Assembly: GCF_900142825.1 (NCBI RefSeq)
Contig: NZ_FRCH01000001.1
Coordinates: 1,302,001 to 1,366,000 of the forward strand
Reading direction: 5' to 3'
Length of the DNA stretch: 64,000 nt
Origin: Rhodanobacter sp. OK091
GTDB taxonomy: Bacteria > Pseudomonadota > Gammaproteobacteria > Xanthomonadales > Rhodanobacteraceae
Shown: piece by piece, positions 3,638 through 18,647 of the stretch
How positions within the stretch are numbered: position 1 is the first letter of the stretch
How the letters are laid out: each line of letters starts with the position of its first letter
Notes under the pieces: model-generated
What the model saw: only the letters and a program-made list of their open reading frames with translations
Told to the model about the DNA's origin: nothing
Database searches by the model: none
Made by a program: the position numbers and the translations under genes

Positions 3638-3975
3638 GCTTCGTCTCCTTCCGCGTAAACCTCGTCAGCCATGAGCGCCTGATGGCTGTCCATGCCAAGC
3701 GGACGGCCACAGGAGCGGCACAACGGCATCTCTCCACTCAACTGCCGACGCTCCCGTTCGGCCTCAAGGAACTGCCGAAACCCAGCAGGACTGACCTTCA
3801 GGCCATAGGCGTTGTTGAAGGCCGTCAGAATCCCCTTCTGGGGCACCTTCGCAGCCAACCGCTGCTCGATCTCGTCGTAGGCCTCATCGAAGGCTTCGTT
3901 ATTCCGGCGCCGACTGCTGGGCTGGATTGCCTGCAGCTCGTTCTTGAAGCGCTCGAATTCCTCGTTCTCACTCAT
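3634..3975 (-). CDS. Small hypothetical protein with CxxC segment
   Basis: A 113-residue charged protein sits between the AlpA-like regulator and DUF3987, overlapping both neighbours (8 bp with the upstream gene's end, 4 bp with the downstream gene's start). The C-terminal part carries a single CRSCGRPLG motif that could hold half a zinc site. The N-terminal half is acidic/helical. Tight overlap on both sides makes it a genuine gene of the operon. It resembles accessory proteins commonly found ahead of DUF3987 genes, but I recognise no specific function. Confidence 0.7.
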   Translation of the reverse strand: MSENEEFERFKNELQAIQPSSRRRNNEAFDEAYDEIEQRLAAKVPQKGILTAFNNAYGLKVSPAGFRQFLEAERERRQLSGEMPLCRSCGRPLGMDSHQALMADEVYAEGDEA

Positions 3976-4309
3976 GCGTGTATTCCTCGATGTTGTTGGT
4001 GTTGGTTTCGGTCTTCAGCTCGCGATCACGCAGCCAGGCGATCAGTTGGTCGTACCACCAGAAGCGGGGCGAGCGAGGCGTATCGAACAGCGGCGTGCCT
4101 TTCGGGAAGGTCGGGTCCTTCTTCAAAATCTTGTAGGCACTGCTGCGGCCAACGCGGACCACTTTGAGCAGCTCGCAAAACCGAACAGTGGGTCCGTCGG
4201 GTTGCCACGCCGTAACCAAGCAAGGCGGTGGGTAGCTGTGTTGTGCCCGATCAATCGGCTTCTTCCGCCGTGAGCGAACATTGGGGTTGCGGTGCATTGC
4301 TTTATTCAT
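3968..4309 (-). CDS. AlpA-like DNA-binding regulator
   Basis: The protein has a compact MerR/excisionase-type helix-turn-helix of the AlpA family: VRFCELLKVVRVGRSSAYKI followed by a short wing and WWYDQLIAWLRDRE. AlpA regulators control integrase and excision genes of islands and prophages. A longer frame opens at 4453, but the ATG at 4309 is preceded by AGGAAAG at good spacing, so I chose it (113 residues). It heads the leftward AlpA-113aa-DUF3987 operon. The N-terminal 40 residues are basic and probably disordered. Regulation of the integrase or of the recombination module is inferred. Confidence 0.75.
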   Translation of the reverse strand: MNKAMHRNPNVRSRRKKPIDRAQHSYPPPCLVTAWQPDGPTVRFCELLKVVRVGRSSAYKILKKDPTFPKGTPLFDTPRSPRFWWYDQLIAWLRDRELKTETNTNNIEEYTHE

Positions 4310-4471
4310 GTAACTTTCCTTTCCTGTCGAAGTACGGCCAGTTCGTTCCAACCGTGCGTGCATTTTTTCCATTTCGCCGACATCGTTCGACGGAAAAAAA
4401 ATCAAAGTTTTTGCAGTCACTCCCCGTCTCACGCCAACGGCCGCTGCAACCACTCAAAAAAAGAAGCACTT

Positions 4472-4511
4472 GAGAAAGAGAAGGGGCGCCTAAGCGCCCC
4501 TTCTCTTTCTC
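4472..4511 (-). terminator. Perfect 18-bp stem-loop terminator
   Basis: GAGAAAGAGAAGGGGCGC (4472-4489) and its exact complement (4494-4511) flank a CTAA loop. It lies 21 bp beyond the stop of the 31-residue ORF. A run of T on the minus strand follows after a short spacer (complement of 4456-4463). It separates the recombination module from the AlpA operon. Confidence 0.75.
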
Positions 4512-4532
4512 ACGCTATTGCCGACGATTCGC

Positions 4533-4628
4533 TTACTCATCAAACCGGTCGTTCCCTTTCTGTAGAAACCTCACCAGTCCGTACAAGGCGAAGCCGTAAA
4601 CCACCGTGCCACCGATGATCTTGAACAT
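4533..4628 (-). CDS. 31-residue membrane microprotein
   Basis: ATG at 4628 is preceded by GAGGAG with six bases of spacing, and the frame ends with TAA at 4533. The peptide (MFKIIGGTVVYGFALYGLVR, then a charged tail ending in DRFDE) has one hydrophobic helix and a charged C-terminus, the profile of a single-pass small membrane protein. It starts 21 bp after the RDF-like gene and is followed by the strong hairpin at 4472-4511, so it looks like the last gene of the recombination operon. Function unknown. Confidence 0.55.
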   Translation of the reverse strand: MFKIIGGTVVYGFALYGLVRFLQKGNDRFDE

Positions 4629-4649
4629 CGTCATCTCCTCATTTCTGTC

Positions 4650-5549
4650 TCAACCGACGCCTGCGGACGCCACGCGCGCCTCCAGCCTCCCACGCAAGCT
4701 GAATGCCCCTTCTTTGACACCATCAGCACGCAACGCCGGTTCCGCGTCGGGGTAGAACTCCTCGACCACGGCCTGCACGTCCTCGGCCAAGTCCTCGAAC
4801 GCACCATTGGCGAAACCTTTCCTCGCCGCCTCGTCCAAAGCCGCCTGATCGAATCCGCTGGCTTGCCGCTGCTCGTCCAGTTCTCGCGCCTGCGTAATGG
4901 CCTGTTCCAGCGTGATGCCAGTTCGCACCACGAGGTCCACGTAATAGATCGGCGTGCCATAGCTCATCGTGGTGGACTTGCCACGCAGCTTGAGTTCCAG
5001 TGGCATGCACGCCAGCCGACCACCCGATACGGCGTGGAAATACTCCAACCGAGCCGTCAGCGTGCGGATGGTGTTGTACGACGTGGTGCGAAGCACGAAG
5101 CTGCCCAAGGCATCGCCCTCACCTTCACCGATCACCACGTTGAGGCGCGCGTACGCTTTGCAGGCTTCCTTGGCGAATGCACAGGCACCCGGCCCCGGAC
5201 ACGGCAGGCTGGCCATGCCATCCTTGCCTGTACGCCGACAGGTCTCGCCATTGCCAACACATACCGGTCTGCCGGTGGTGCGGTCGAACAGCGAGTAGTC
5301 CGCGCGCAGGTTGAGCGCCGGGTCGTTGAACAGCAGCCGCACCGGTATCGCGCGCAGCTTGTGGCCCTCCGCTTCCTTGCGCAGCTTCTCGTCCAGCGGG
5401 TGCAATACCCATCCGTCCCGGCCTTGTATCTGGCTGGTGAGGGTGAACTGGTCGTCCTTCTCCGGCAACCGCTTGCCGTTGCGCTCGACCACGCGCCCGA
5501 TGGAAATCCGCCCGATCACGGGCGGGGTGATAGCCAAACCTTTCAACAT
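4650..5549 (-). CDS. Gp3/RDF-like protein ('hydrolase or metal-binding' family of mobile elements)
   Basis: This 299-residue protein resembles the family that databases call hydrolase or metal-binding protein, related to Gp3-like recombination directionality factors of phages. It has a Cys-rich centre (VCVGNGETCRRTGK, then PCPGPGACAFAKEACKAYAR) that may bind metal, followed by LRTTSYNTIRTLTARLEYF and YYVDL segments. The ATG at 5549 has GGAG six bases upstream; a TTG at 5561 lies inside that ribosome site and was rejected. It follows the YqaJ exonuclease by 15 bp. A role in excision or recombination is inferred from family and context; the named biochemical label is uncertain. Confidence 0.6.
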   Translation of the reverse strand: MLKGLAITPPVIGRISIGRVVERNGKRLPEKDDQFTLTSQIQGRDGWVLHPLDEKLRKEAEGHKLRAIPVRLLFNDPALNLRADYSLFDRTTGRPVCVGNGETCRRTGKDGMASLPCPGPGACAFAKEACKAYARLNVVIGEGEGDALGSFVLRTTSYNTIRTLTARLEYFHAVSGGRLACMPLELKLRGKSTTMSYGTPIYYVDLVVRTGITLEQAITQARELDEQRQASGFDQAALDEAARKGFANGAFEDLAEDVQAVVEEFYPDAEPALRADGVKEGAFSLRGRLEARVASAGVG

Positions 5550-5564
5550 GGTGAACTCCAAGGG

Positions 5565-6539
5565 TTATGAATCGGTGGCAAGAGACAGCACGAACCGGCG
5601 CGAGCCGGGACGGATAACGGCGTAGTTCGCAGCAAGATCGGGGTGGTCGGTGACGAGCTGCTTAGTGTCGAGGCTGATACTGTCTTTCGAGCGCCGGAAC
5701 GTGACTTCGCCACCTTGGAACCTGGCGCGAGAGGCGTCGCCCATCGCTTGCTGGATGGTTTGCTTGCACTGTTCGGCCAGTCGCGCCTTTTCTTCCATCT
5801 CGGCCTTGAGCGCGGACAGTGTTTTGAACGTCTCGCACAGCGATTCGTCCTGGCCGAAGTCCAGCGTCGTGTCGTTGCCGGGGTAGAGCTGACGCAAGGT
5901 GCGTGCGGCTGACTCACTGCCATCAGCAGACGGTGGAAGGTCCTGCTCCACGCACTGCCAGAAGTTCGCTTCCAACACGACCAGGCGAGCAATCACTTCG
6001 TCGTCGCGCTCGATGCGATGGATTTCCAGCTTTTGCCCACACAGCAGGACAGCCACATCCGCCGCGGCATAGCCCGTCACGGCAAGCTGGTGTTGCACCT
6101 GGAGTTGCACGTACTCCGGTACGCCGTCCTTCCACAGCCGCGAACCGAACTCGCCCGCCGTCTTGCACTCTAGAATCTGGACATCCGAATTCCCAACAAC
6201 CTCTCGGTCGAGGTTCGCCAACATGAAGTTGAAGGTCGGGTGCTGGAGCACGGCGTTGACGCGCCGTACCTTGCGCCCGGTCTTCTGCTGGTAAGCCGTT
6301 GCGACGTAGGGTTCGAGCAGCGTGCCCCAGTAGCACGGATCATCCATGCCGGTGGTTTCCTCCTTCGCCGTCGCCCGTCCGGTTTTTTCCAGCCAAAGTT
6401 CCAGTGGGCTCTTGTACGGATTGAGGCCCACCGCCGTGGCGGCATCGGAACTGCCGATGCCACCTTGGCGTACGGCCAGCCATTGCCCACGGTCGAGCGT
6501 GCGTGTATCGACCAGCCTCAAGGCAGATCGCTTCTTCAT
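5565..6539 (-). CDS. YqaJ-family (lambda-type) exonuclease
   Basis: The 324-residue protein is a YqaJ viral recombinase. The family degrades one strand of dsDNA ends to feed single-strand annealing. Nuclease-fold signatures are visible: GGIGSSDAATAVGLNPY near the N-terminus, the acidic GTLLEPYVA segment, and the ILECKTA (ExK) motif near residue 150, followed by VQLQVQHQLAVTGY. A coiled C-terminal part (EMEEKARLAEQCKQ) is usual. The start has GGAGAA six bases upstream. A Bet/RecT annealase is not apparent nearby; the DUF932 or Gp3-like neighbour may supply partner functions. The gene lies just after the terminator at 6552-6580, so it may have its own promoter or rely on read-through. Confidence 0.85.
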   Translation of the reverse strand: MKKRSALRLVDTRTLDRGQWLAVRQGGIGSSDAATAVGLNPYKSPLELWLEKTGRATAKEETTGMDDPCYWGTLLEPYVATAYQQKTGRKVRRVNAVLQHPTFNFMLANLDREVVGNSDVQILECKTAGEFGSRLWKDGVPEYVQLQVQHQLAVTGYAAADVAVLLCGQKLEIHRIERDDEVIARLVVLEANFWQCVEQDLPPSADGSESAARTLRQLYPGNDTTLDFGQDESLCETFKTLSALKAEMEEKARLAEQCKQTIQQAMGDASRARFQGGEVTFRRSKDSISLDTKQLVTDHPDLAANYAVIRPGSRRFVLSLATDS

Positions 6540-6551
6540 CGGTGTTCTCCC

Positions 6552-6580
6552 AAAGAAAAAGCCCGGCCTGAAGGCCGGGC
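6552..6580 (-). terminator. Rho-independent terminator between MGLDMYL gene and yqaJ
   Basis: GCCCGGCC (6561-6568) pairs with GGCCGGGC (6573-6580) around a four-base loop. On the minus strand it is followed by TTTTTCTTT. It lies 27 bp past the stop of the 150-residue gene and 13 bp before the YqaJ start, so it can act as a terminator or attenuator. Confidence 0.75.
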
Positions 6581-6606
6581 GTTATGACGTTTGCATCAGA
6601 TTGACC

Positions 6607-7059
6607 TCACCAACTGGCGCGGTAGTAGATGTCCCAGCCTTGCTCCTGCAATCGCTTGGCGTGATGAAGGACTTTCAACGTGTAATCGACATCGTCTTCG
6701 TCCAGCGTTTCATCTTCGTCGGTGGTGAAATGCTCGCTGGCACTCGCCGGGTCATCGCTGACCTGTTCGAGCTGTTCCTCCAGCTCCATCAAGGTATCTA
6801 CCGAAACAAAGGCTGCTCGGCAGTCGTCGTGGCCTTCTTGAGTGTTGTTCACAAACCAGTGATGCAAGGCATCGAACTTGCGCCAGTAGCCCACCCGCAC
6901 CGTGACGCCACTGACTTCCAGCAGGGACGCATCCTCGCCCGGCTTTTCTTTCGGCGGCACATAGCCGATGGCCGCGCCAATGGCACGGCGCATCGGTTCC
7001 GTTTGCGCGTCGCAGGGGGCAACGTACCGCTTGGCCTCCAGGTACATATCGAGTCCCAT
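6607..7059 (-). CDS. MGLDMYL-type phage/island protein of unknown function
   Basis: The protein (150 residues) starts with MGLDMYLEAKRYV, a signature of a small family seen in phages and genomic islands. It also shows VGYWRKFDALHHWFV and a C-terminal LQEQGWDIYYRASW, typical of the same family, and an acidic low-complexity patch (DEDETLDEDD) in the middle. It begins 12 bp after the DUF932 gene ends, so the two are co-transcribed. No enzymatic motif is evident and the family's function is not known to me. Confidence 0.65.
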   Translation of the reverse strand: MGLDMYLEAKRYVAPCDAQTEPMRRAIGAAIGYVPPKEKPGEDASLLEVSGVTVRVGYWRKFDALHHWFVNNTQEGHDDCRAAFVSVDTLMELEEQLEQVSDDPASASEHFTTDEDETLDEDDVDYTLKVLHHAKRLQEQGWDIYYRASW

Positions 7060-7071
7060 CGCAGGTCTCCG

Positions 7072-8028
7072 TCAGACCACCAGCTTCATCGCTTCGTCCC
7101 AGGCACGCTGCTTGATCTGCGCCCCTTGGCCGAACCACGCCGCATCACGGCGGTGGTCGTCGCTACGCGCCCGACGGTGGTGGTCGACGAACTCGGTCAC
7201 GCTGTTGAGCACACCCCATGCCGTGCCCCGGCTGGACGTCATCAACGCACCGCGGCCACCGCCTTCGTACAGTGAGCGGACGGTGGCAAGCGCCTGTTCG
7301 TTGACCACCACGGCCTTACCGTCCGGCGCGGCATAGGTGAGCACCCGGCGCAACAAGCCTTCGACCGTATCGGGGTCGACGGGCCGTTCCACCAACGCCT
7401 TCATGCGGGCGACGAAGCCATCCCACGACGAAACGGTGATGCCTAACTGACGCTTGACCGCGTCGGGATCGAACTGGCTGCGATGCGGAACCTTGATAGC
7501 ACCGTTGGCGTTCCCCAGCGCAATGGACAAGGTGTTGTTGCAGACCACACGCACCGACGTGAACTGTGCCGTGGTCGCCAGCGTGCCGTCGCAGGCCGTG
7601 GCCAGCAGCAAGTAGCCGTCCACCTTGTCTCGACCCTTCAGCGTGACGCTCTGCCCGGTACGAGCCAGTGCCCAGAACTTGCGGCCCTCACGCAGCACGC
7701 CTGCCGTTTCCAGCTCGAAGCCGTTGCAGGCGGTCAGGTCGCGATAGAACTCCAGGATCTCGCCCGGCTGCACCACATGAAAACGCTTGGACACAACCGC
7801 CAACGGAGCCTTGGTATCGGAGCGGTAGAGCACCTTCTGTTCCGGGAAGGCGTTGATGACCCCGACATTGTTGTTGCCAGAGATGTAACGGACTTCGGAC
7901 TGCTCGATCTGCCAGTCCATCCCCGCGTTCTTCTTCCAGACCTCGATGGGCTGTTGCAGGCCCAGCTTGTTACCCAAGCCATGCCACGGCTTCTCACCGG
8001 CGTAAGCCATTGTTTCAACCAAATGCAT
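7072..8028 (-). CDS. DUF932 domain protein (phage/plasmid-like, TIGR03299 type)
   Basis: The protein belongs to the DUF932 family found with YqaJ exonucleases on islands, plasmids and phages, where some members stand in the place of a single-strand annealing protein. Visible family features are MAYAGEKPWHGLGNKL at the N-terminus, YRSDTKAPLAVVSKRFHVVQ, and GTAWGVLNSVTEFVDHHRR with DAAWFGQG near the C-terminus. I chose ATG 8028 (318 residues) because GAGGAAA lies eight bases upstream; a longer frame starts at 8064. The gene is preceded by the repeated stem-loop at 8059-8089. Confidence 0.75.
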   Translation of the reverse strand: MHLVETMAYAGEKPWHGLGNKLGLQQPIEVWKKNAGMDWQIEQSEVRYISGNNNVGVINAFPEQKVLYRSDTKAPLAVVSKRFHVVQPGEILEFYRDLTACNGFELETAGVLREGRKFWALARTGQSVTLKGRDKVDGYLLLATACDGTLATTAQFTSVRVVCNNTLSIALGNANGAIKVPHRSQFDPDAVKRQLGITVSSWDGFVARMKALVERPVDPDTVEGLLRRVLTYAAPDGKAVVVNEQALATVRSLYEGGGRGALMTSSRGTAWGVLNSVTEFVDHHRRARSDDHRRDAAWFGQGAQIKQRAWDEAMKLVV

Positions 8029-8058
8029 TGTCGTTTCCTCATAGGTGGGGGCATAAAC

Positions 8059-8089
8059 GCACAAGGCCCGGACATGCCGGGCCTTGTGC
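8059..8089 (-). terminator. Perfect 13-bp stem-loop ahead of the DUF932 gene
   Basis: GCACAAGGCCCGG (8059-8071) and its exact complement (8077-8089) flank ACATG. On the minus strand it is followed by GTTTATGCC, a poor U-run. It lies between the microprotein and DUF932, so it may be a terminator, a processing site or a leader attenuator. The identical stem occurs at 13490-13520. Confidence 0.6.
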
Positions 8090-8111
8090 GCTGTGCTTGT
8101 GACGCCGTGAA

Positions 8112-8216
8112 TCAGGGTGCTTTAAGGCTGCTGCAGCTGGTGCATCGGACGATGCCGACCAGAACCGCAGTAGCAACTACCAGGACGCAGTAGATCGTGT
8201 CGAGTTTGCCTGTCAT
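8112..8216 (-). CDS. 34-residue membrane microprotein, paralogue A
   Basis: ATG 8216 to TGA 8112 encodes a peptide starting MTGKLDTIYCVLVVATAVL, with one transmembrane helix and a C-terminal CTSC segment. The same-length paralogue at 13543-13647 differs at only about seven positions, mostly conservative (T/S, I/V, T/A, R/K), with no stop or frameshift. This suggests selection on the protein. The ribosome site is weak (GGGA about ten bases upstream). It lies upstream of DUF932. Function unknown. Confidence 0.6.
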   Translation of the reverse strand: MTGKLDTIYCVLVVATAVLVGIVRCTSCSSLKAP

Positions 8217-8311
8217 GAGTCAGGGTTCCCTTGCGAACGCTGCGACGCGGAGCGTCCAAACGCAAAGCCGATGGTTATCGACTTCACATGGGTAATATAG
8301 ATCTGAGATTT

Positions 8312-8554
8312 TTTTGATCGACGTGCTTCGGGCGAGCCACGGATGCGCTGTCGAAGAAATTCTCCGCTCAGGAAACGGGATAGCTCACCGGACCCTTCCA
8401 TCGGGGATGGCGAGGAAGCGGCTTCTCGGTTTCAAGGGCTTACGGCCCGATGAAATGACCGCTCAGAACCGAAAACCCTTCGATAAACTATTCGGAATTC
8501 CGGCGCTACGCTTTAGTCTAGGGTCTAGGTGGCTTAGCGCAGGAGTATCACCCG
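8312..8554. other. Intergenic region upstream of gajA
   Basis: No convincing gene. Short frames here lack ribosome sites. The region must hold the gajA promoter on the plus strand and, at its left edge, the minus-strand promoter of the duplicated unit. AGGAG at 8541-8545 is the gajA ribosome site. Confidence 0.4.
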
Positions 8555-10306
8555 GTGTATCTGGCCCAGTTGAGCATCACCAACTTTCGCAAGTTGAGCA
8601 AAGCCACGCTGACGTTTCAGCCGGGATTGAATGTCTTGGTGGGCGCCAACAATGTCGGCAAGACAGCGGTGGTCGATGCCCTTCGCGCGTTGCTTGCCAA
8701 TCACGATGAACCGTATCCACGCTTGAGCAAGGAAGACGTGCATCATCCCAAGGGCGGCGCCGCGACCGGAGATATCACCTTTGAATACATCTTCCGGGAT
8801 CTGGATGTCGACGACGAAGCCGACTTCCTCACGGCTCTCAAGCCCGGGACCGATGGCAAGCTGCAGGCCCAGATCACCGTCCGCTACGCCGAACCGGACA
8901 AAGTCGGACGACTGCGGGTCAAGCGCTGGTGCGGCGACAATGAGGACGTGGGCCTGACCTCAGACATCATGGAAAACCTTCGGGGGGTCTACCTGCCGCC
9001 GCTGCGGGACGCCTCGCAAGGCCTCAAGCCTGGCCGCACCAGTCAACTTTCTCGGCTGCTGCGATTGCTGTCGGACACGGCAGGCGAGGACAAGATCAAC
9101 GAGGCGCTCAAAGCGCTCGACGTTGAGCTACGCAAGCACGATCCCATCCTCAAGACTCATGAGGCGATCGCGATGCGCCATACCGAGATGCTGGGAGCGC
9201 AGCTGGCCCAGGGGCTCGACATCGGACTGAGCGCGAGCGACTTTCAGCGGTTGGCAGCTCGGCTGTCCTTGCTGGTAGATACCTTTGAGATCGAGCAGAA
9301 CGGACTGGGATTCAACAACCTAATCTTCATGGCCGTCGTGCTCAGTGAGTTGGCCAAGAATCCCGACGCGAGTTACCGAAGCCTGATCGTCGAAGAGCCC
9401 GAGGCACACCTGCACCCGCAACTCCAGACCGTACTGCTTCGCTACCTAGAAACCGTTCATGCGGTCAAGGGCGAGAAGCCGGTCCAGCTATTCGTAACTA
9501 GCCATTCCCCGAATTTCGCAAGCATTGCCGACCTTGACAGCCTCGCCTGCCTAGTGGAAACCGAGGGTACAGTCGAGTCATTTTTTCCGCGAACCATTGC
9601 GTTCGGGAAGGGTAAACGCGAAAAGCTCGAGCGCTACCTTGATGTGACCCGCGCCGAGCTGTTTTTCGCTCGGCGAGTGATCTTTGTCGAGGGAGCCGCG
9701 GAGCTGATGATGGTCAACGTGCTCGCCGAGCGAGCGGGCTTCAAGCTGCGCGAGCACGCCGTCAGCCTGATCAGCGTCGAAGGCCTGAATTTCGATTCCT
9801 TCCTGCCGCTGTTCGGTGAACAGGCACTGAAAATTCCCGTCGCCCTCATCACGGACGCAGACCCGATGGAAATTCCCGCCGGAGGCGGCAAAGCCCAGCC
9901 GGTCTATCCGGCTCTCGGTGACGCGATCACGCTGTCTGACAACGCGAACAAGATGAAGAAAAGCGAGGACACGCACGTCAAGGTGTTCCATGGCATCAAG
10001 ACCTTTGAGTACGACATGGCACTGCACGCGGACAATCGAACCGCCATGTTGTTGACCCTCAAGGAGCTCCATCCGATCATTGGCGCCAGCGTGGAGGCCG
10101 AGGTTGATGCGGCGGCAGGCGATGCAGCCAAGGCGAAAGCACTCTTCCGCGGCATGTTCGAGCGCGAGCATGGCAACGTGCAGAAGGGGCGATTCGGCCA
10201 GGCCCTTGCCCAGGCGTTATCGGACCCCGCGACGGCTTGCGTGGTGCCGGAATACATCAAGAGGGCCATCGCCCACGCCTGCCAGATCGCGCCTGTAGCA
10301 ATATGA
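8555..10306 (+). CDS. gajA: GajA: OLD-family ATPase/TOPRIM nuclease of Gabija
   Basis: This 583-residue protein has the Gabija GajA layout: an N-terminal ABC-type ATPase followed by a TOPRIM domain. Walker A GANNVGKT is at residues 30-37, Walker B LIVEEPEAHLHP at about 277-288, and TSHSPNFA follows as the switch region. TOPRIM shows the catalytic Glu in FVEGAAE (E379) and the DAD motif (D434, D436). GajA cuts phage DNA when nucleotide pools fall. The GTG start has AGGAG (8541-8545) nine bases upstream. Its stop overlaps the gajB start (ATGA), the usual Gabija arrangement. All expected key residues appear intact. Confidence 0.88.
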   Translation: MYLAQLSITNFRKLSKATLTFQPGLNVLVGANNVGKTAVVDALRALLANHDEPYPRLSKEDVHHPKGGAATGDITFEYIFRDLDVDDEADFLTALKPGTDGKLQAQITVRYAEPDKVGRLRVKRWCGDNEDVGLTSDIMENLRGVYLPPLRDASQGLKPGRTSQLSRLLRLLSDTAGEDKINEALKALDVELRKHDPILKTHEAIAMRHTEMLGAQLAQGLDIGLSASDFQRLAARLSLLVDTFEIEQNGLGFNNLIFMAVVLSELAKNPDASYRSLIVEEPEAHLHPQLQTVLLRYLETVHAVKGEKPVQLFVTSHSPNFASIADLDSLACLVETEGTVESFFPRTIAFGKGKREKLERYLDVTRAELFFARRVIFVEGAAELMMVNVLAERAGFKLREHAVSLISVEGLNFDSFLPLFGEQALKIPVALITDADPMEIPAGGGKAQPVYPALGDAITLSDNANKMKKSEDTHVKVFHGIKTFEYDMALHADNRTAMLLTLKELHPIIGASVEAEVDAAAGDAAKAKALFRGMFEREHGNVQKGRFGQALAQALSDPATACVVPEYIKRAIAHACQIAPVAI

Positions 10307-12051
10307 TCGCCCTATCCGACGAACAGCAGGCCATCGTTGACGCGCCCCTAGCGCCGCTGGCGGTAGTCGCGTGCGCAGGCAGCGGCAAGACCCACACGGC
10401 CGTGCACCGCCTGCTGGAGATTCGCCGGCGACTGGGCGATGGCCGTGGTCGCGTTGCCCTCCTCTCGTTCTCCAACGTGGCCGTCAAGACCTTTCGGGAC
10501 ACCTACCATCCGCTGGCACAGACCCTGCCACAGGGCGCTGCGCGCCATCGGGTGGAGATCGATACGCTCGACGGGTTCATCACGACCAACCTCCTGCGCC
10601 CACACGCCCCACGCACCATGGGTTGCAATCGGACGCCCTTCCTGATCTTGGGAACCGAGCCTTTCCTTCAGAACAAGGATTTTCAGTTCTGGGCGCAGCC
10701 GGCAACGGGCGCGGCATTTCCGGTTCCACGCTCAGACATTGGGGACGTAATAGCGAACTTTCGGGCCGGCGCAGCACAGTTTGAGTATCGAAAACACAAA
10801 GCGCTCGTTCCGATCAACAACGGTCCAACGGTGGTGGCGCGGCTCGGCAAGATCGGCGGCTACACTCACAGTTTGGGGCAGTACTGGGCCCTTCGCACAT
10901 TGCAGTGCCAGCCGCTCATTCTGGCCGCGCTCGCCAGGCGCTACCCACACATCTTGATCGACGAATCGCAAGACATTGGCACCTTGCACCAGGCCATCCT
11001 GACGCAACTCGCCGCGGCCGGTTCGCAAATCTCCCTAATTGGCGACCCACATCAGGGCATCTACGATTTTGCTGGTGCCGATGGTCACTATCTCGCCAGG
11101 TATCACCACCAGGCAGGCGTCCTCGCTTACCCGTTGACGCGCAATTTTCGCTCTGTTCCATCCATTGTGACGCTGGCCAATGCATTGTCGGAGCGCAATG
11201 ACACGGCGGACAGAGCGGCTCCCGGGCTGCCGAATGGCGGTTATTTCATCGGCTACAAGAAAACGGAGCGAGACAAGGTCATCGTGGCGTTTCAGGCTGC
11301 AGTGATATCCGCCGGATTGAGTCTGGCGAGATCCGCAATTCTGTGCCGCGGCCGAGCTATGGCCGACAGCGTTGCCGGCACCGATGCTCCGATGGGGCAA
11401 GGCTTGGTGAAGCTGTTTGCTCTAGCGGCGGTGCTGCGAGACCGGCGACAGGACTACTTGGCTGCATTCATAGCGGTCGCTGGCTGCGTAGTCGGTCTGC
11501 TCAAGAATCCGCCCGACGGTTTGCTTGCCTCGATTTCGCAGCCGGCGCGATTCCCAGAGGCCCGACCCCTTCGCCGCGAAATTTGGAAGTTCGCTCGGGA
11601 CCCAGACACCGGTCTGCCCGGTACGTCCCTGCTAGCGGACACCCAGTGGCACCCGCTGCTGACGACACGGGTCAAGGCACTGCTCCAGCGCCTTCAGAAG
11701 GAGTTCGGTCTGGTGCCGGCGGACCACCTAGGCAACAAGTTGGCGAAAACCGAACTGCCGCATGCCCCACTGATGTCTGTCCCAGACCTAGCCACAGAGC
11801 CACAAGAAGTTCTGCGCGTGGACACAGTGCACAAGGTCAAAGGCGAAGGCTTGGATGCCCTGCTGTACTTAGTGGAGAAGGGGCATGCTGAGGCGTTGCT
11901 GTCCGGCGTGGACACTGAACTGGGGCGCATTGGCTATGTCGCCATGACGCGTGCACGAAATCTGGCATGGGTCGGTGTCCCGGCAAACGCGCTATCGGTA
12001 TTGCGCCCTGCCTTGATAGTGCGTGGTTTCGTGGAAGTGGGTGCAACCTAA
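10303..12051 (+). CDS. gajB: GajB: UvrD-like helicase of Gabija
   Basis: The 582-residue protein is a superfamily 1A helicase. It shows a Q motif (LSDEQQAIVDAP), Walker A ACAGSGKT (K29), Walker B ILIDESQD (220-224), motif III GDPHQGIYDFAGAD, LTRNFRS (motif IV region), VHKVKGEGLDALLYL (motif V) and MTRARNLAWVGVP (motif VI). GajB forms the Gabija complex with GajA and senses DNA termini or nucleotides. A frame opens earlier at 10237, but ATG 10303 overlapping the gajA stop gives the natural N-terminus MIALSDEQQ. The 16-bp gap to the next gene places the protease in the same operon. Confidence 0.85.
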   Translation: MIALSDEQQAIVDAPLAPLAVVACAGSGKTHTAVHRLLEIRRRLGDGRGRVALLSFSNVAVKTFRDTYHPLAQTLPQGAARHRVEIDTLDGFITTNLLRPHAPRTMGCNRTPFLILGTEPFLQNKDFQFWAQPATGAAFPVPRSDIGDVIANFRAGAAQFEYRKHKALVPINNGPTVVARLGKIGGYTHSLGQYWALRTLQCQPLILAALARRYPHILIDESQDIGTLHQAILTQLAAAGSQISLIGDPHQGIYDFAGADGHYLARYHHQAGVLAYPLTRNFRSVPSIVTLANALSERNDTADRAAPGLPNGGYFIGYKKTERDKVIVAFQAAVISAGLSLARSAILCRGRAMADSVAGTDAPMGQGLVKLFALAAVLRDRRQDYLAAFIAVAGCVVGLLKNPPDGLLASISQPARFPEARPLRREIWKFARDPDTGLPGTSLLADTQWHPLLTTRVKALLQRLQKEFGLVPADHLGNKLAKTELPHAPLMSVPDLATEPQEVLRVDTVHKVKGEGLDALLYLVEKGHAEALLSGVDTELGRIGYVAMTRARNLAWVGVPANALSVLRPALIVRGFVEVGAT

Positions 12052-12067
12052 GCGAGGAAGCAACACG

Positions 12068-12793
12068 GTGTCCCAGGTAGATCAGTTGGAGTTGTACCTA
12101 TCGAGTGTGCCGCTCGTCCAAATCGGCGCTAACTCCCTCCCTAGCGGCCATGCGTCGGGTTGCTTGGTCGACTATGGTGGAAAGCGCTTGCTTCTCACAG
12201 TGGCTCACGCAACCGGGGACAATCAGCGCTGGGCGCTGCAGGTCCGATTCGACCAAACGCTTAAGCGGACCCAATTGGTTGGCCTGGGCATCATGAATTT
12301 CCTTGCCAGCGGCACGCTAGATGCCTCCCATCTCAAACGCATAGATTTTTCCTATGTCCAAGTGCCTTCGAGCACAGTGGCATTCAGGCAAGAGATTGAA
12401 ATTCCGTCCAACGTGATTAAGACCGAGCGTACGATCAAGGTCCATACGCCGACCTTCGAGGAATCACCGGATTCGGCGGATCTTTATGGTTTTTGTGGCA
12501 TGGTGCTTCCGGCGCAGGAAGAGCATTTCGGAGCGAGCTACGTATCCGGTGAGTTTCGGATCTACGAGAACTTGACCTTTCTTCATCGCATAGATGACAA
12601 GCTCGTTTTCAAGTTGCCCTCCGATCATCCTGGTCACGACCAGTTTGAAGGGTGTAGCGGTGCTCCTATTCTCAATGGTGCCGGAATTCCCATCGCGCTT
12701 GTCGTTGGTGGATGCCAAGAGACTGATGAAATCTACGGGCTGTCTCTCGCAACGTACAAGGTTGCGATAGATATCGATGTTGGGCTCGTATAG
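12068..12793 (+). CDS. Cytoplasmic trypsin-like serine protease linked to Gabija
   Basis: The 241-residue protein has a chymotrypsin-fold triad: His47 in LLLTVAHATG, Asp93 in KRIDFSYV and Ser197 in GCSGAPIL. There is no signal peptide, so it should act in the cytoplasm. GTG 12068 is preceded by GAGGAAG seven bases upstream; a longer frame from 12023 lies inside gajB and was rejected. It follows gajB by 16 bp on the same strand, so it is very probably co-transcribed with the Gabija genes. Standard Gabija has two genes, so this would be an accessory effector or processing protease, or a separate resistance gene. The role in defence is inference from linkage. Confidence 0.7.
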   Translation: MSQVDQLELYLSSVPLVQIGANSLPSGHASGCLVDYGGKRLLLTVAHATGDNQRWALQVRFDQTLKRTQLVGLGIMNFLASGTLDASHLKRIDFSYVQVPSSTVAFRQEIEIPSNVIKTERTIKVHTPTFEESPDSADLYGFCGMVLPAQEEHFGASYVSGEFRIYENLTFLHRIDDKLVFKLPSDHPGHDQFEGCSGAPILNGAGIPIALVVGGCQETDEIYGLSLATYKVAIDIDVGLV

Positions 12794-12909
12794 GCAACGA
12801 TCTGGCGCTCACCAACTTCCATTTCTGGCAGGTGCCCGAAAATACAAGTTCGCAGCGGGCTCAGATTGCCAGCCTGCTGAGCAAGCACCGTCAACTGTGT
12901 TGCCCATAA
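12793..12909 (+). pseudogene. Coding-like remnant (38 codons) after the protease
   Basis: In a frame different from the protease, the DNA just past its stop reads GNDLALTNFHFWQVPENTSS, then continues to a TAA at 12907 with a protein-like composition. There is no start codon with a ribosome site, so it may be the 3' end of a gene lost when the cargo was inserted. It could also be chance. Confidence 0.3.
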
Positions 12910-12932
12910 TTGGTCAACAGGCTGGCAATCTG
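12862..12932. repeat. Perfect 15-bp inverted repeat with 41-nt spacer
   Basis: CAGATTGCCAGCCTG (12862-12876) and its exact complement (12918-12932) face each other. No U-run follows on the plus strand. It lies between the Gabija/protease operon and radC, a convergent intergenic position. It may be a bidirectional terminator, a small mobile-element end pair or a recombination site. Confidence 0.6.
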
Positions 12933-12977
12933 TCCAGAGGGGGTTCGTGGTGATGAGCCTTCAAACGTTGCGAGTAT

Positions 12978-13463
12978 TCAAAGAAGACCACGCTCCGCCA
13001 TGCTGACGCACTCACTTCCCACCACGATGTGGTCCAGAACACGTATACCGATGAGCCTCAGCGCCTCACAAAGCTCGTTAGTGAGCGCTCGATCCGCTGC
13101 GCTGGGCTCCGCCAAACCGCTTGGATGGTTATGCGCAAGGATCGCCGCGCAGGCGTTGATAGCCAAGGCTGCGCGTACCACCTCCCTGGGATGGACGCTC
13201 GCACCATCGACGGTGCCGGCGAAAAGTTTTTGGCAGTCGAGGATGCGGTGCCGGTTGTCCAGCCAAAGGACGTGGAACTCTTCGTGCATAAGCGCACCCA
13301 AGCGCATACGAAGGAAGTCGCTGGCATCGGTCGGGGTAGCGATGCTGCCTTGACGTTCAAGCTTGTTTCTCAGGATGCCCTCGGCCGCGGCGAGCACGTC
13401 TCGCTCCGTCGTTTCGCCGGTGAGTTTGTAGCGGGTGTAGGTCAAAGATTGCGCGATATGCAT
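12978..13463 (-). CDS. radC: RadC-like JAB-domain protein
   Basis: The 161-residue protein is a RadC/MPN-domain family member of the mobile-element type. The JAMM zinc motif is present: an upstream Glu (HEEFHVLWLDN), then HNHPSGLAEPSAAD (HxH...SxxD). Chromosomal RadC is longer, about 225 residues, with an N-terminal helix-hairpin-helix region; this short form is common on islands and its function is not settled despite the DNA-repair label. ATG 13463 has AGGAG six bases upstream. It follows the second duplicated unit (microprotein B and stem-loop), as DUF932 follows the first. Confidence 0.8.
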   Translation of the reverse strand: MHIAQSLTYTRYKLTGETTERDVLAAAEGILRNKLERQGSIATPTDASDFLRMRLGALMHEEFHVLWLDNRHRILDCQKLFAGTVDGASVHPREVVRAALAINACAAILAHNHPSGLAEPSAADRALTNELCEALRLIGIRVLDHIVVGSECVSMAERGLL

Positions 13464-13489
13464 GACGAACTCCTAGTGATGGCATAAAC

Positions 13490-13520
13490 GCACAAGGCCC
13501 GGACATGCCGGGCCTTGTGC
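13490..13520 (-). terminator. Perfect 13-bp stem-loop ahead of radC
   Basis: The stem and loop are identical to those at 8059-8089 (GCACAAGGCCCGG, loop ACATG). On the minus strand GTTTATGCC follows, and the radC ribosome site lies about 15 bases further on. The hairpin has been kept without change while flanking bases drifted. Confidence 0.6.
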
Positions 13521-13542
13521 GCTCTGCTTGTGGCGGAATGGA

Positions 13543-13647
13543 TCAGGGGGCTTTGAAGCTGTCGCAGTTGGTGCATTTGACGATGCCAACCAGAACTGCT
13601 GCAGCAACAACCAGGACGCAGTAGACCGTATCGAGTTTGCCGCTCAT
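13543..13647 (-). CDS. 34-residue membrane microprotein, paralogue B
   Basis: ATG 13647 to TGA 13543 encodes a peptide starting MSGKLDTVYCVLVVAAAVLV and ending with a CTNC segment and KAP. It has the same length and transmembrane profile as paralogue A at 8112-8216. The in-frame region upstream is open to 13854, but the homology between copies and the position of ATG favour the short form. The ribosome site is weak. Function unknown; see paralogue A for the selection argument. Confidence 0.6.
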   Translation of the reverse strand: MSGKLDTVYCVLVVAAAVLVGIVKCTNCDSFKAP

Positions 13648-13743
13648 GTCGTCGAGTACCAATAGCGAACGCTGCCATGCGAAGCGTCCAAACGCGAAGC
13701 CGATGACCACCGACTTCACATGGGTAATATGGATCTGAGATTT

Positions 13744-14084
13744 CGTTGAATCGAAGCTGTTACGCATTCCAACCGCAGAACGCCAGCCACCTGCCCGCCG
13801 TCGCCACAGCGACTGACCAGCATCGACAGCGAAACTGACCACGGCCGGCGGCAACGCTGTCCATCGTCACCAATGCATTGCCTATTCCCGGCATTGAGCA
13901 CGACCACCACGCCAGCGGAACTAGCCAGGCTTACCAAGAGCGCTTACTAGCGGAGTCGACCGGCCGACTTTGGCCAGAAGCGAACGTTCGGGAAGAGGCA
14001 GTCTTTTGTGGCGCAGTGCAAGTAACGGCTATATGGGTCCAGCCGAAAATACGAGTAAAACTTGCGCGAAACTGCCCAACACAC
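13744..14084. other. Intergenic stretch without recognised gene
   Basis: I see no gene with a plausible start, no strong hairpin and no repeat here. The stretch separates the duplicated unit from the 3' end of the membrane-protein gene, both on the minus strand. Confidence 0.4.
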
Positions 14085-15575
14085 TTACTTGCGTGGCGGT
14101 GACGTGGGGGATGCCTTGGAGCTGTCCTTAGTTGGTGCTGGCACGACCGTTGCGGTGGTGGGCTTGGCCGGCGTGGCGGAAACCGTGTCAGTTGCAGGAC
14201 TGGGTGGCGGCACGAACGGAATAGCGGACTGAGCCGGGACATCCGTCGACGTGGGCGTGGCGGACGTGGGCGCTAACACCGCCCAACCACAGGCTAGAGT
14301 GAGCACAGCGACAGCCACTCCGCCCAGCCACGCGGTCCAGACGAAGGAACGCTCGGCCTTACCCGTGGGCTTCACCACCATGCGCGTGTATTCGGCTTCG
14401 GGTAGGAAACGGTACAACCGGTGCTGCCAGTCCGTGCGCAACTGCCTCTGCAGGCGCATGAACTGCACGCCGGAGGAAATCACCATAGTGATGTACAGAG
14501 CGACCACCAGCATGACAATGGCGATAAGCTCCGCTGGCGCATTGGCTGCAACGCGGGCAGCGATCAATCCAATACCTGTGGCCAAAGCCGCGGCCACCGA
14601 ACCAGTCAACTGGCGACTGATGTCCGAGAGCTTGGCTGTTTCCTCAGTAACAGCCTTGCGCAGATCGCTGAGTACTTTCAGCGTGTCAAGGCCTGTTTCG
14701 GACAAGGCCATCTGGTAAGCGATCTGAGCGCTTTCCCAAGCGTGAGCCAAATGCTGGCGTAGAAACGTTGGAGTGCTTTCCGCAGTCGCACCTGAGCGGG
14801 CCAATTCGGCGGCCAGCAGGATGTGTCGCATCTCGGCTTCGCGCTCATGCTCAAACAACCAGTAGGAGACTTCCATCAGGGTGTTGAAGCTCGCGTGATC
14901 CAGCACATCGGAAACCACGTCAAATCTTGGTAACGTCAAGCGCGGAGGACCGCGAAACTTCAACGCCCCATTGTCCGCGTCAATCTCATCAGGTAGACAG
15001 CTGATCAAAGCGGCCGAGGCAGCCCGTATCCATACTTGAGCCGCCGGCTCAATAAAGAGTTCGCTATCTAATGCCGGCGCCAGCCAGTAGCGCACGTCCT
15101 CCGGCACACGGCGGACATTACCGAACTCCTTGACCAAGGCCCGGGGTGACTTGGTGGAAGGCAACGCGGCGGGCTCCTGCGCGCCCTCCCAAGACTGGAT
15201 TACCCGCACGCCAGTAACCAACGAACCTGTGAAGCGAGCTATATGCCAACGCGGCGCTACATGGCCGATCTCTAGCCACTCTGCAAAGGCGTGGTTGCTC
15301 AGCAATCGCAGCGTGTTGGCTGGTGAGGCTGGCTTTTGAATGACTAAGCGGTAAGGAGCGAAGCCGGGATCGGGGGCTTCCGCACTGACCCAAGGCTCAC
15401 CCACGCGATCAAACAGCTCCACTGGCCAACCCAGAGGCTCGCACAACGCCTTCAATTCGGAGGCGTGCGCTGCCGAAAGCGCCGACACGGTGACGGCGTT
15501 TTCGGATTCAGCGACGAAGGCTTGCTTGGTCTCAACCAAGCCATCAATCGCTTCAGCGAGCGCGATCAGGGACAA
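14085..15575 (-). CDS. Three-helix membrane protein, partner of the NA37-like gene
   Basis: The ~496-residue protein has a large soluble N-terminal region (about 330 residues, Trp-rich segments such as EVSYWLFEHEREAEMRHILL). It continues with a coiled stretch, two adjacent transmembrane helices (SVAAALATGIGLIAARV and ELIAIVMLVVALYITMVI), a linker with basic residues, a third helix (WLGGVAVAVLTLACGWAVLA), and a Pro/Thr/Ser-rich tail. TTG 15575 has GGAGG six bases upstream and overlaps the end of the NA37 gene by 23 bp, so translation is probably coupled; a GTG at 15620 is the alternative. No family was recognised. Pairing with a nucleoid-associated protein on an island suggests a two-gene defence unit; this is inference. 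Confidence 0.65.
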   Translation of the reverse strand: MSLIALAEAIDGLVETKQAFVAESENAVTVSALSAAHASELKALCEPLGWPVELFDRVGEPWVSAEAPDPGFAPYRLVIQKPASPANTLRLLSNHAFAEWLEIGHVAPRWHIARFTGSLVTGVRVIQSWEGAQEPAALPSTKSPRALVKEFGNVRRVPEDVRYWLAPALDSELFIEPAAQVWIRAASAALISCLPDEIDADNGALKFRGPPRLTLPRFDVVSDVLDHASFNTLMEVSYWLFEHEREAEMRHILLAAELARSGATAESTPTFLRQHLAHAWESAQIAYQMALSETGLDTLKVLSDLRKAVTEETAKLSDISRQLTGSVAAALATGIGLIAARVAANAPAELIAIVMLVVALYITMVISSGVQFMRLQRQLRTDWQHRLYRFLPEAEYTRMVVKPTGKAERSFVWTAWLGGVAVAVLTLACGWAVLAPTSATPTSTDVPAQSAIPFVPPPSPATDTVSATPAKPTTATVVPAPTKDSSKASPTSPPRK

Positions 15576-16602
15576 CGGTGTCCTCCACAATGCGGTCAGT
15601 GGTGATCGTGATGACCTCACCCTCCCCCGCCGGATTGGGCATGCGCTGCACCCTCACTGCATTGATTTCATCCGGGTACGTCACGGTAACGCCTTCGGTC
15701 GTACGAAGTTTGCGCAAGGGGGGCTTACGGAGGACCTGCCGATCGGGTGGGAACGCCAGTCCCGTTAGCCGTTGCGTCCTCAGCTTCTGGGTGGTTCGGC
15801 GTCGCAGCAATGTCTTCGTTTCCTCGTCGGCCGGGTGCCCAGCTGCGGCGATCACAGCATCGACGATAGCTTCCTCGTCGATTTGCTGGCGATCGCGCAG
15901 CATACCCTTGGCCTGTTGCAAGGCACTCGCTACGTCATTATTGGGAAGCAGATCCTTGCATTCCAAAAAAGTCTTACGCAGCGCTTCGACCAGCTCGCGA
16001 TTGAGTTCATCGTCGCTTCGCGTCCGTTCAACATCCAGAAACGTCGCGAAGTAGTCGGCAATCTCCGGTGCCGACTTGGTGCGATCACGTGCGGCCACCA
16101 TCGCTTCGGCCCGGCCATTTACGACACGAATCAGGGCAGCTTTCTGAATCGCCTTCTTGTCGTCAATGAATGCATGAATGATCCGACGCAGCCGCTGCTG
16201 ACCGTCTTCGCCTTCGGATTGCTCGATGGCTTCGCGATAATCGTATTTGATCAAGCTGTAGATACGAACATTGGCTTCATCGGCCCGCAGATCAAAGATA
16301 AAGAAGGCGCCATCGCGTGTAGTAGTTCCGTGTTGACGTGAGAACTCCCGTGATAAGTCCTGAGCACCGGCCTCGAAGGTAATCGCTCCGATGGCCATGT
16401 TTTGGAGTCGATCCCTTGAGCCGGATACTTCTTTGAACTGATAGACAGCCGCTGTATCAGTGTCCAGGATGCGGCCAATAAAGAAGTTGGCATGCTCGAC
16501 CACACGGGCCGGTTGTGGGTCAAACTCCTCCTCGCCCACCACGTGCAGGATCATCGACTCAATGCGCAGCTGCCCGCGCTCGTCCTCGGTCAGAAAACCC
16601 AT
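15553..16602 (-). CDS. NA37/YejK-like nucleoid-associated protein
   Basis: The protein (about 349 residues from ATG 16602) resembles the 37-kDa nucleoid-associated protein family (PF04245). The N-terminus has LRIESMILHVVGEEEFDPQP, then FFIGRILDTDTAAVYQF, and a middle part with GAFFIFDLRADEANVRIYSLIKYD and NVASALQQAKGMLRD. Family members bind nucleic acid; some island-borne versions sit in predicted defence loci. I prefer ATG 16602 (AAGG upstream) over the ATG at 16641 because homologues begin close to this point. The membrane-protein gene overlaps its 3' end, forming a two-gene operon. Confidence 0.7.
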   Translation of the reverse strand: MGFLTEDERGQLRIESMILHVVGEEEFDPQPARVVEHANFFIGRILDTDTAAVYQFKEVSGSRDRLQNMAIGAITFEAGAQDLSREFSRQHGTTTRDGAFFIFDLRADEANVRIYSLIKYDYREAIEQSEGEDGQQRLRRIIHAFIDDKKAIQKAALIRVVNGRAEAMVAARDRTKSAPEIADYFATFLDVERTRSDDELNRELVEALRKTFLECKDLLPNNDVASALQQAKGMLRDRQQIDEEAIVDAVIAAAGHPADEETKTLLRRRTTQKLRTQRLTGLAFPPDRQVLRKPPLRKLRTTEGVTVTYPDEINAVRVQRMPNPAGEGEVITITTDRIVEDTVVPDRAR

Positions 16603-17106
16603 CGCTACCTTGCTCCCCAAATCCTTGTATGCATGCTCCACCCATTGTGGCTACGAGCACGATAGAACTGCGGTGTCTCAAAATCTGCGAACACTGGCCC
16701 TTGCCTCCCCCCTGAAGCTCGCCTGGTGCATGGCTTGCCCAGTTCCGATGAGACTGCTGCGTTTGTAGCCCGTCGCTGCGGAAAGGACAAGCGTAAATGT
16801 GGAACGCCAAGGAACCGTCCTCCCCACTCCGATCGCCATGACCGAGCATCGTTCGGTGAGCAGTGTGATTGGGTACCTCAGAAAAAATTGGCTGCGCCCG
16901 CCTAAATTAGCGATTCCGCCAAACTTGCTTGAACTGGAATAGCGTGGCCATTCGTCACAATGCCGCTGCCTTCAAAAATCCGCTTGGGGGCGATAAGCGA
17001 CCTTCATTCGGACGGTCATTTAGCCGCGCCGGTCAAGTTACGCTGGGGCCCTAGATGCCAACTGTGCTGGCAACGTTTGGCCAACAAACCGGCAACCCGT
17101 GCCTCG
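16603..17106. other. Intergenic stretch between NA37 gene and integrase
   Basis: About 500 bp without a supported gene. Short frames lack ribosome sites. It should hold the leftward promoter of the NA37/membrane-protein pair. I see no strong terminator for the integrase, no tRNA and no repeat. Confidence 0.4.
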
Positions 17107-18372
17107 TCAGGAGCGCCCGATTCCTGTGGCATGTGCTTTTCGAATCGAGTCTTTGACCTTGCGAGAAGCAGCGCCTTTCCTCGTGCTGCGCACCGGGTCA
17201 TTCAAGAGATCCGCCCACTCCTGCATCATCGCCTTGCGCTCATCCATGTACTCAGCATGGTTGTAGCTCGCACGCACCTTGTCGCGTTCGGCGTGCGCCA
17301 GCTGACGCTCGATCACGTCTGAGCGATAGCCCATCTCATTGAGGATGGTCGACGCCGTGGCGCGGAAGCCGTGAGCCGAGAAACCGATGCTGTCCTTGCC
17401 ATTGAATCCCATGCGTTCCAGTGCGCGATTCAAGGTAGTGGCAGTCATGCACTCCTTTGGCCTGCGGTAGTTCGGGAACAACGCATCACGCCCTCCCGTA
17501 TAGGTCTTCAACTCACGCAACAGACTGACCGCCTGCTTCGACAATGGAACGATGTGCGGTTCCCGCATCTTCATGCGCTCTGCGGGAATCCGCCACTCGG
17601 CGTTGTCCAAGTTGAACTCCGACCACTCTGCCTTGCGAAGTTCGACAGTTCGAACAAAGGTAAGCAGCATCAGTCGTAGTGCGATTACGGTTGTGCGATA
17701 CCCGCCGTACTTTCCCAGCGCTTTGGTGAAGTCGACGATCTGACTGCGTGAAAGCGGCTTGTGATGTTCGACCTTCGGGCGATGAATGGCCCCTTTCAAT
17801 GCGGCGGCGGGATCGCCATCGGCGCGCAGCGTGGCAACGGCGTACCTGAAGATGGCCGAAGACCACTGGCGAACCAGCAAGGCAACCGTTTCGGCTCCCC
17901 GCCCTTCGATGCGACGGATGATTTCAAGCAGATGCGCCGCAGTCACGCTGCGAATCGGCAACCTGCCCACATGGGGAAATACATCTGACTCCAGGAACCG
18001 CTCCACCTGACGCAGGTAGTAGGGCGTCCACCCGGGAGACTTCTTGGAAATCCACTCCTTCGCAACGCCTTCGAACGTATTCGCGTTCGCAGCATGGTTC
18101 GATAGCCGTTCGGCCTGCCGGTTGTGTGAAGGATGAATACCTTGCTTGACGAGTGCGCGCGCCTTGCCGTGCTCGGTTCGTGCCTCGGCAAGTCCGATGC
18201 TCGGATACTCACCAATAGCAAAGACGTTCTCCTTGCCAGCGATGCGGTAGCGGAAACGCCAGAGCTTCACGCCCGTCGGACGCACTTCGAGATGGAGGCC
18301 GCCGCCATCCGCTAGCTTGATGGGTTTGGGACCAGGTTTGGTGTTGCGGATCTTGGCGTCAGTCAGCGACAT
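17107..18372 (-). CDS. P4-type tyrosine integrase
   Basis: The 421-residue protein starts MSLTDAKIRNTKPGPKPIKL, the classic arm-binding (DUF4102) N-terminus of P4-type integrases, followed by a core-binding domain and a catalytic domain. Catalytic residues are visible: Arg in LLTFVRTVELRKAEW, His/Arg in SAHGFRATASTILNEMGY, the H in QLAHAERDKVR, and the nucleophile Tyr in ASYNHAEYMDER. A frame opens at 18447, but ATG 18372 gives the family's standard start. The gene runs away from the right boundary into the island, as usual when the attachment site lies just upstream of int. A palindrome sits directly before the start codon. Confidence 0.9.
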   Translation of the reverse strand: MSLTDAKIRNTKPGPKPIKLADGGGLHLEVRPTGVKLWRFRYRIAGKENVFAIGEYPSIGLAEARTEHGKARALVKQGIHPSHNRQAERLSNHAANANTFEGVAKEWISKKSPGWTPYYLRQVERFLESDVFPHVGRLPIRSVTAAHLLEIIRRIEGRGAETVALLVRQWSSAIFRYAVATLRADGDPAAALKGAIHRPKVEHHKPLSRSQIVDFTKALGKYGGYRTTVIALRLMLLTFVRTVELRKAEWSEFNLDNAEWRIPAERMKMREPHIVPLSKQAVSLLRELKTYTGGRDALFPNYRRPKECMTATTLNRALERMGFNGKDSIGFSAHGFRATASTILNEMGYRSDVIERQLAHAERDKVRASYNHAEYMDERKAMMQEWADLLNDPVRSTRKGAASRKVKDSIRKAHATGIGRS

Positions 18373-18375
18373 GGT

Positions 18376-18400
18376 GCGGGTATCGAGCTTCGATACCCGC
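18376..18400. promoter_or_regulatory. Palindrome directly upstream of the integrase start
   Basis: GCGGGTATCGA and its exact complement flank GCT, beginning three bases before the integrase ATG. TACCCGCAA is repeated directly at 18394-18402 and 18406-18414. It could be an operator for AlpA or the integrase itself, an arm-type binding site, or a hairpin that hides the ribosome site. Confidence 0.55.
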
Positions 18401-18414
18401 AACGGTACCCGCAA

Positions 18415-18647
18415 TTTCTCTGGCTTACAACGGATGCTCGCGGACATCTATGGCATAGAAACCCTTGTTTTTAAGGCGTTCTATGCGAATACGTGGACTG
18501 CCGTGGATATGCATGGATGCCGATGCTAGTTGTCGATCATCAGGAGCATGACGGGCCTTGCCGGAATCATGGCGTATCGGCGCCAGGGGTTTCGGCATTA
18601 TAGCCATCCCTTTCCAACGGCCTTGCAGGCACGACGCTGGGGCCGTC
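18415..18647. other. Probable right junction region of the island
   Basis: This stretch has no gene. It joins the integrase promoter side to the 3' end of the FAD-oxidoreductase gene. The attachment site should lie here, but no tRNA 3' end is recognisable, and the left copy of the core repeat is outside the window. Confidence 0.4.

Follow-up and report, generated by a model that had tools for sequence, protein, structure and literature searches.

A Gabija operon followed by a trypsin-like serine protease gene in the cargo slot of a Rhodanobacter integrative element

Gabija is described as a system of two genes, both of them indispensable, and is among the most abundant anti-phage systems (PMC10681800). 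Other systems, namely Hachiman, Avs, Lamassu and DRT, have repeatedly acquired trypsin-like proteases, and those appended to Hachiman and Avs activate the partner nuclease; these proteases form the N-terminal part of a fusion with a defence enzyme, an MBL nuclease gene lies upstream, and virtually all protease-fused HamA proteins are without the catalytic motif (PMC12799240). In the CARD-NLR-like system LypABC a trypsin-like peptidase activity is essential within an immunity-type operon, in which LypA combines CARD-like with ATPase domains and an endonuclease domain is fused in LypC (PMC13236601).

The window studied here, a stretch of 64,000 nucleotides from Rhodanobacter sp. OK091, contains a gajA-gajB pair that is followed in the same insert by a third gene, encoding a trypsin-like serine protease (Table 1). 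The pair resembles Gabija, a class 2 OLD system, in both genes, their order, their overlap (ATGA), the catalytic residues and the PADLOC matches of the window proteins (GajA 4.2e-292, GajB 1.5e-243), and the locus differs from described Gabija in the third gene. GajA matches Pfam AAA_15 (9.3e-35) and OLD-like_TOPRIM (6.9e-16), as an ABC ATPase with a TOPRIM nuclease of the OLD family, and GajB, whose gene lies directly 3' of gajA, matches UvrD-helicase (6.3e-21). When window GajA was aligned with those of 11 plasmid systems (L006-L016), 62-77 % identical to window GajA, G35-K36 of the Walker A loop and the residues E379, D434 and D436 were invariant in all 12 rows. The stretches of GajB that we take to be the named SF1 helicase motifs likewise fall on invariant columns of the matching 12-row alignment, of which the rows are 44-57 % identical to window GajB. 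The initial annotation had read both genes, with the same residues, motifs and overlap, in this way, and it was correct. Judged from the sequences, the Gabija pair is complete, with both genes intact and the catalytic residues kept.

Table 1 Features of the Rhodanobacter locus (window positions)
Feature	Position	Strand	Description
DUF932, left slot border gene	7072..8064	-	Pfam DUF932 9.6e-71
Cargo insert, DUF932-radC slot	8322..12981 (about)	.	contains gajA, gajB and the protease gene
gajA	8555..10306	+	OLD-family ABC-ATPase/TOPRIM nuclease, 583 aa, GTG start
gajB	10303..12051	+	UvrD-like SF1 helicase, 582 aa
Ribosome-binding-like GAGGAAG	12054..12060	+	sequence reading; precedes protease start
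Trypsin-like serine protease gene	12068..12793	+	241 aa, H47/D93/S197
71-nt hairpin, 15-bp exact arms	12862..12932	.	68 nt past protease stop, 3' end of insert
RadC-like, right slot border gene	12978..13463	-	Pfam RadC 4.9e-42
Tyrosine integrase of element	17107..18447	-	Pfam Phage_integrase + Arm-DNA-bind_3

The protease gene begins with GTG at 12068 on the same strand as gajB, the stop of which ends at 12051, leaving a gap of 16 nt. The mechanical list of open reading frames also offers a start at 12023, within gajB, which gives 256 aa. Three of the four relatives have N-termini (M-T-x-D-x-L) that align with the 12068 start, the start of the Hymenobacter row in this alignment having been set by hand at 2884. 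Inspection of the N-terminus by eye revealed no hydrophobic stretch or signal peptide. The start codon, ribosome site, spacing, length, triad and lack of a signal peptide given for this gene and its product by the initial annotation are all in agreement with what we find.

The four relatives are 20-30 % identical to the window protease, and H47, D93 and S197 (the last in GCSGAPI) are invariant in all five proteins, with the His-Asp-Ser order and the GxSG motif (S197 in GCSGAP) of PA-clan peptidases. As the catalytic residues persist across 20-30 % identity, we infer that the gene has been kept as an enzyme. The window protease alone had no Pfam or NCBIfam match at E<=1 and no PDB match at E<=10, while three relatives matched Pfam Trypsin_2 weakly (0.06-0.16). 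A profile of the five rows matched a second, distantly related trypsin-like family, represented by a profile in which six of seven examined members were aligned, with 95 % probability over 81 columns, in the N-terminal half only. The AlphaFold model of the protease, made with 4 sequences, failed (mean pLDDT 31.5) and the protease call therefore rests on sequence: the trypsin assignment draws on the catalytic residues, on GCSGAP and on the profile-profile match over one half, and not on a double beta-barrel fold. Against PDB the best E-value of the five-row profile was 0.01; many of the matches covered just a short segment around the catalytic serine of viral capsid or NS3-type proteases, further ones were unrelated, and they were set aside. 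The PADLOC LmuA model PDLC03855 matched the window protease at 0.0029 and two relatives at 5.3e-6 and 1.6e-5. The same model also matched in 86 of 229 class genomes and in 7 of 14 controls, E. coli and B. subtilis included, so it detects trypsin-like domains generally, and membership in Lamassu on this basis was rejected as unspecific.

The recurrence of the protease with Gabija was assessed in 96 loci, comprising 80 viral loci (kept from 93 relatives found with a GajA profile in viral contigs), 13 from plasmids and 3 from genomes. An adjacent gajA-gajB pair was present in 65 of them (53 viral, 11 plasmid and a contig of Rhodanobacter sp. MP7CTX1, L018). With the protease profile applied at E<=10 to ORFs of at least 50 aa, a protease was found with a single pair, that of L018, which belongs to the same element as the trio of the window; the four remaining matches of the profile were the relatives described below, all of them without such a pair. 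The protease thus did not recur with any independent gajA-gajB pair in this set, and the co-occurrence count that the initial annotation had proposed went against its view, as 64 of the 65 pairs were without the protease. Most of the 65 pairs are, by the identity of GajA, divergent from that of the window: besides L018, 13 have a GajA at least 61 % identical, i.e. L006-L016 (62-77 %), L057 (61 %) and L058 (69 %). Four of the 53 viral loci (L062, L080, L082 and L097) end at gajB or within ~0.6 kb of it, and a gene behind gajB might have escaped notice in them. GajB was present at E<=1e-40 in 23 plasmid records, of which 11 were examined; the other 12 (nine from Agrobacterium fabrum and one each from Delftia, Xanthomonas and Enterobacter) were equal in identity and score to an examined one, and a protease search of all plasmid records matched none of the 23. 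As a single query against viral contigs, GajB gave 14 candidate stretches and no relatives. In genomes, GajB was found at E<=1e-80 in one of 369 of the class (the source), and the GajB family PDLC00106 at E<=1e-30 in two of 398 (the source and G233).

The protease itself was present in two of 100 sampled genomes (the source and G004, which is assigned to the same genus) and in one of 398 genomes of the phylum (the source), and the source genome has one match at E<=0.001. The four relatives outside the element are on a Chryseobacterium plasmid (L004, 28 % identical), on a Hymenobacter plasmid (L005, reached via the Chryseobacterium protein), on a Flavobacterium contig (L019) and on a contig binned as Saccharibacteria (L020). 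The L020 protease (6227-6979) shares 94 % identity with its Flavobacterium beibuense counterpart, and the contig is therefore probably misplaced Bacteroidota. One genome-collection scan, with patterns derived from three divergent sequences, led from 45 candidate stretches to 3 protease loci, and the sampling of the family is thin. Three scans of viral contigs gave no protease relative, none of 50,697 phage records had a protease match, and PHROGs gave 0 matches for 3 proteins.

None of the four relatives had a gajA-gajB pair within the 11-19 kb stretches examined. On this small sample the protease is mostly found away from Gabija, a result that the initial annotation had named as one that would refute its proposal. 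In L004 a CBASS-like cyclase and a 2TM effector lie ~5-7 kb from the protease. In L019 a type I methylase, a PtuA-like ATPase and an HNH protein lie within ~8 kb, the HNH gene at a distance of 1.8 kb; downstream is an AlbA_2 gene that matches PDC-S50. Two neighbours were scanned in L005 and neither matched. A profile search of 339 phylum genomes returned the source protease and weak partial matches at five other places, four of which were examined (G428 was left out). Three of these resembled, by eye, DegP-type or exported proteins and were discarded, and one was a trypsin-like gene of the second family without a visible signal peptide (L165, in G204). In L165 (5728-12328) genes for a GmrSD-like protein, hsdR, a YgjP-like metallopeptidase and this trypsin-like protease are consecutive on one strand, possibly as a protease-equipped restriction cluster.

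For the second trypsin-like family six plasmid contexts were considered, with three further Hymenobacter matches left out. They held conjugation genes, metal resistance, transposases and an integrase, and no annotated Gabija-like ATPase-helicase pair, many neighbours being annotated just as 'hypothetical'. On an Alteromonas plasmid (L173, 1124-4774) the trypsin-like protease gene and a gene for an MBL-fold hydrolase are ~2 kb apart on opposite strands, and on a Rhizobium plasmid (L170, 5995-12783) ~5 kb separate the trypsin-like protease gene from an S1 peptidase gene that is in turn followed by a gene of the caspase family. Taken together, the relatives look like accessory genes carried by mobile DNA, in some cases close to defence genes.

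The three genes are located in an integrative element, which in addition to the integrase encodes a Gp3-like recombination directionality factor, YqaJ and DUF3987 proteins. The contig of Rhodanobacter sp. MP7CTX1 is 99.6 % identical to the window over 3068-18549, and the identity stops at 18549. Homologues of the DUF932 protein occur in 15 of 100 genomes, the source included, and 16 stretches from the 14 other genomes were compared. A radC gene was upstream of DUF932 in ten of these; the trio was present in one (L039, in G004), cargo was absent from four (L040, L041, L042 and L050) and five had other content (L043, L044, L046, L049 and L052). No radC was seen upstream of DUF932 in L045, L047, L048, L051, L053 and L054, the last having ~2 kb there. 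In the empty slots of L040-L042 homology to the window breaks off at 8321-8336 and sets in again at 12982-12997, and for the more divergent L050 the respective positions are 8090 and 12997. Judged from these breaks, the insert carries the trio and no further gene that we could recognise. For L043, whose slot is filled, the corresponding positions are 8326 and 12959.

The other fillings of the slot are varied. The L043 slot (4994-10487, in the congener genome G027) has a HamB-like helicase accompanied by a 254-aa ORF without family match and, on the other strand, a 242-aa ORF paired with a weakly PIN-like ORF; as these are two units, sharing of the slot is alone no proof of a common function. 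The L049 slot contains a KAP NTPase and further ORFs, those of L044 and L046 contain LprI-domain proteins, and that of L052 several ORFs without assignment. In L044 (8652-13276, counted with the stretch oriented so that DUF932 is on the minus strand) a second, divergent gajA-gajB-like pair lies beyond radC, and no protease accompanies it in the stretch examined.

A scan for promoters and terminators gave 2 promoter-like sites, compared to 1.8 expected, and 6 terminator-like sites, compared to 4.4 expected; Rfam and tRNA scans of the window found nothing. The 71-nt hairpin behind the protease gene was present only in the source genome and G004 among 60 genomes. A segment of ~270 bp ahead of DUF932 (8045-8317) recurs upstream of radC (13476-13749) at 84-87 % identity, and both copies contain the same hairpin with 14-bp arms. 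The two border genes may share a common control region.

The explanation that we favour, with modest confidence, is a functional Gabija system joined by a captured, self-standing peptidase gene that is not a core part of Gabija. We read the locus in this way because the few known relatives of the protease do not adjoin Gabija. The cargo slot would house a complete two-gene Gabija, catalytically intact by its residues, and a mobile trypsin-like peptidase gene of separate origin would have been captured directly behind gajB. The gene is probably co-transcribed with gajAB, and the protease would most likely be expressed from the gajAB transcript and profit from the Gabija promoter. GajAB would act as other Gabija systems do, with an OLD nuclease and a UvrD-like partner on phage DNA, and as both proteins keep their motifs, the system shows no requirement for a replacement effector. 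The protease would act as a substrate-specific peptidase and contribute a separate cleavage step, with a protein of the phage or the host as substrate. The lower G+C content of the protease gene (53.3 %, compared to 59.8 % for gajA and 61.4 % for gajB) fits a separate origin, whereas the 16-nt spacing, the gene's own ribosome site and the position in one insert fit a functional operon and speak against capture. Among the papers listed, with subscription papers largely outside, no title or abstract opening tied a protease gene to Gabija, and on this basis we regard the arrangement as a previously undescribed form of Gabija, resting on one element.

The proposal of the initial annotation was a closer coupling, in which sensing by GajAB would trigger proteolysis. 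In the fuller form considered here, GajAB would sense phage DNA and switch the protease on, a target would be cleaved, and phage or cell would be stopped. Recognition of phage DNA by GajAB would then license a second effector arm in the shape of a free-standing peptidase, without a fusion or an MBL pro-nuclease. We consider this possible but doubtful. The part of the proposal that stands is the third, co-oriented gene in an operon-like layout within one insert; a recurrent, dedicated effector is not what the 65 pairs show. The statement that trypsin-like proteases occur in other immune systems such as Avs agrees with PMC12799240, where they are fused, and these proteases in Hachiman, Avs, Lamassu and DRT are a precedent for attachment of such an enzyme to a phage-defence system; the text of that paper does not contain the word Gabija. 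The distant trypsin-like protease that terminates the GmrSD-hsdR-YgjP run in L165 also favours the proposal. Compared to the fused proteases, however, that of the window is a stand-alone gene behind gajB, unfused to GajA or GajB. Its immediate upstream neighbour is gajB and not an MBL-fold nuclease gene, none of the 12 scanned element proteins matched an MBL family in Pfam, and GajA retains its nuclease residues, unlike the HamA proteins fused to proteases. The window protein is also a bare peptidase, unlike LypABC.

It is improbable, in our estimate, that the protease regulates Gabija by trimming or removing GajA, GajB or their inhibitor and in this way sets its activity. The co-oriented gene in the same insert would suit such a function, but any cleavage site would be hypothetical, nearly all gajA-gajB pairs do without the protease, and the relatives of the protease have no such pair nearby. 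That the protease has no defence role, serving housekeeping or maintenance of the element and standing here by chance, is very improbable: LprI-domain proteins, which are not obvious defence genes, fill the L044 and L046 slots, and some second-family proteases lie beside conjugation or metal-resistance genes, but two of the four relatives (L004 and L019) are within ~8 kb of defence-type genes.

If the protease is coupled to GajAB, Gabija would be able to drive proteolysis, and the recruitment of proteases would extend to a system in which the protease is free and no MBL nuclease takes part. If it is not coupled, the locus still illustrates clearly how a defence operon and a free peptidase can together occupy one cargo slot, and it draws attention to families of trypsin-like peptidase genes on mobile DNA that have been little described.
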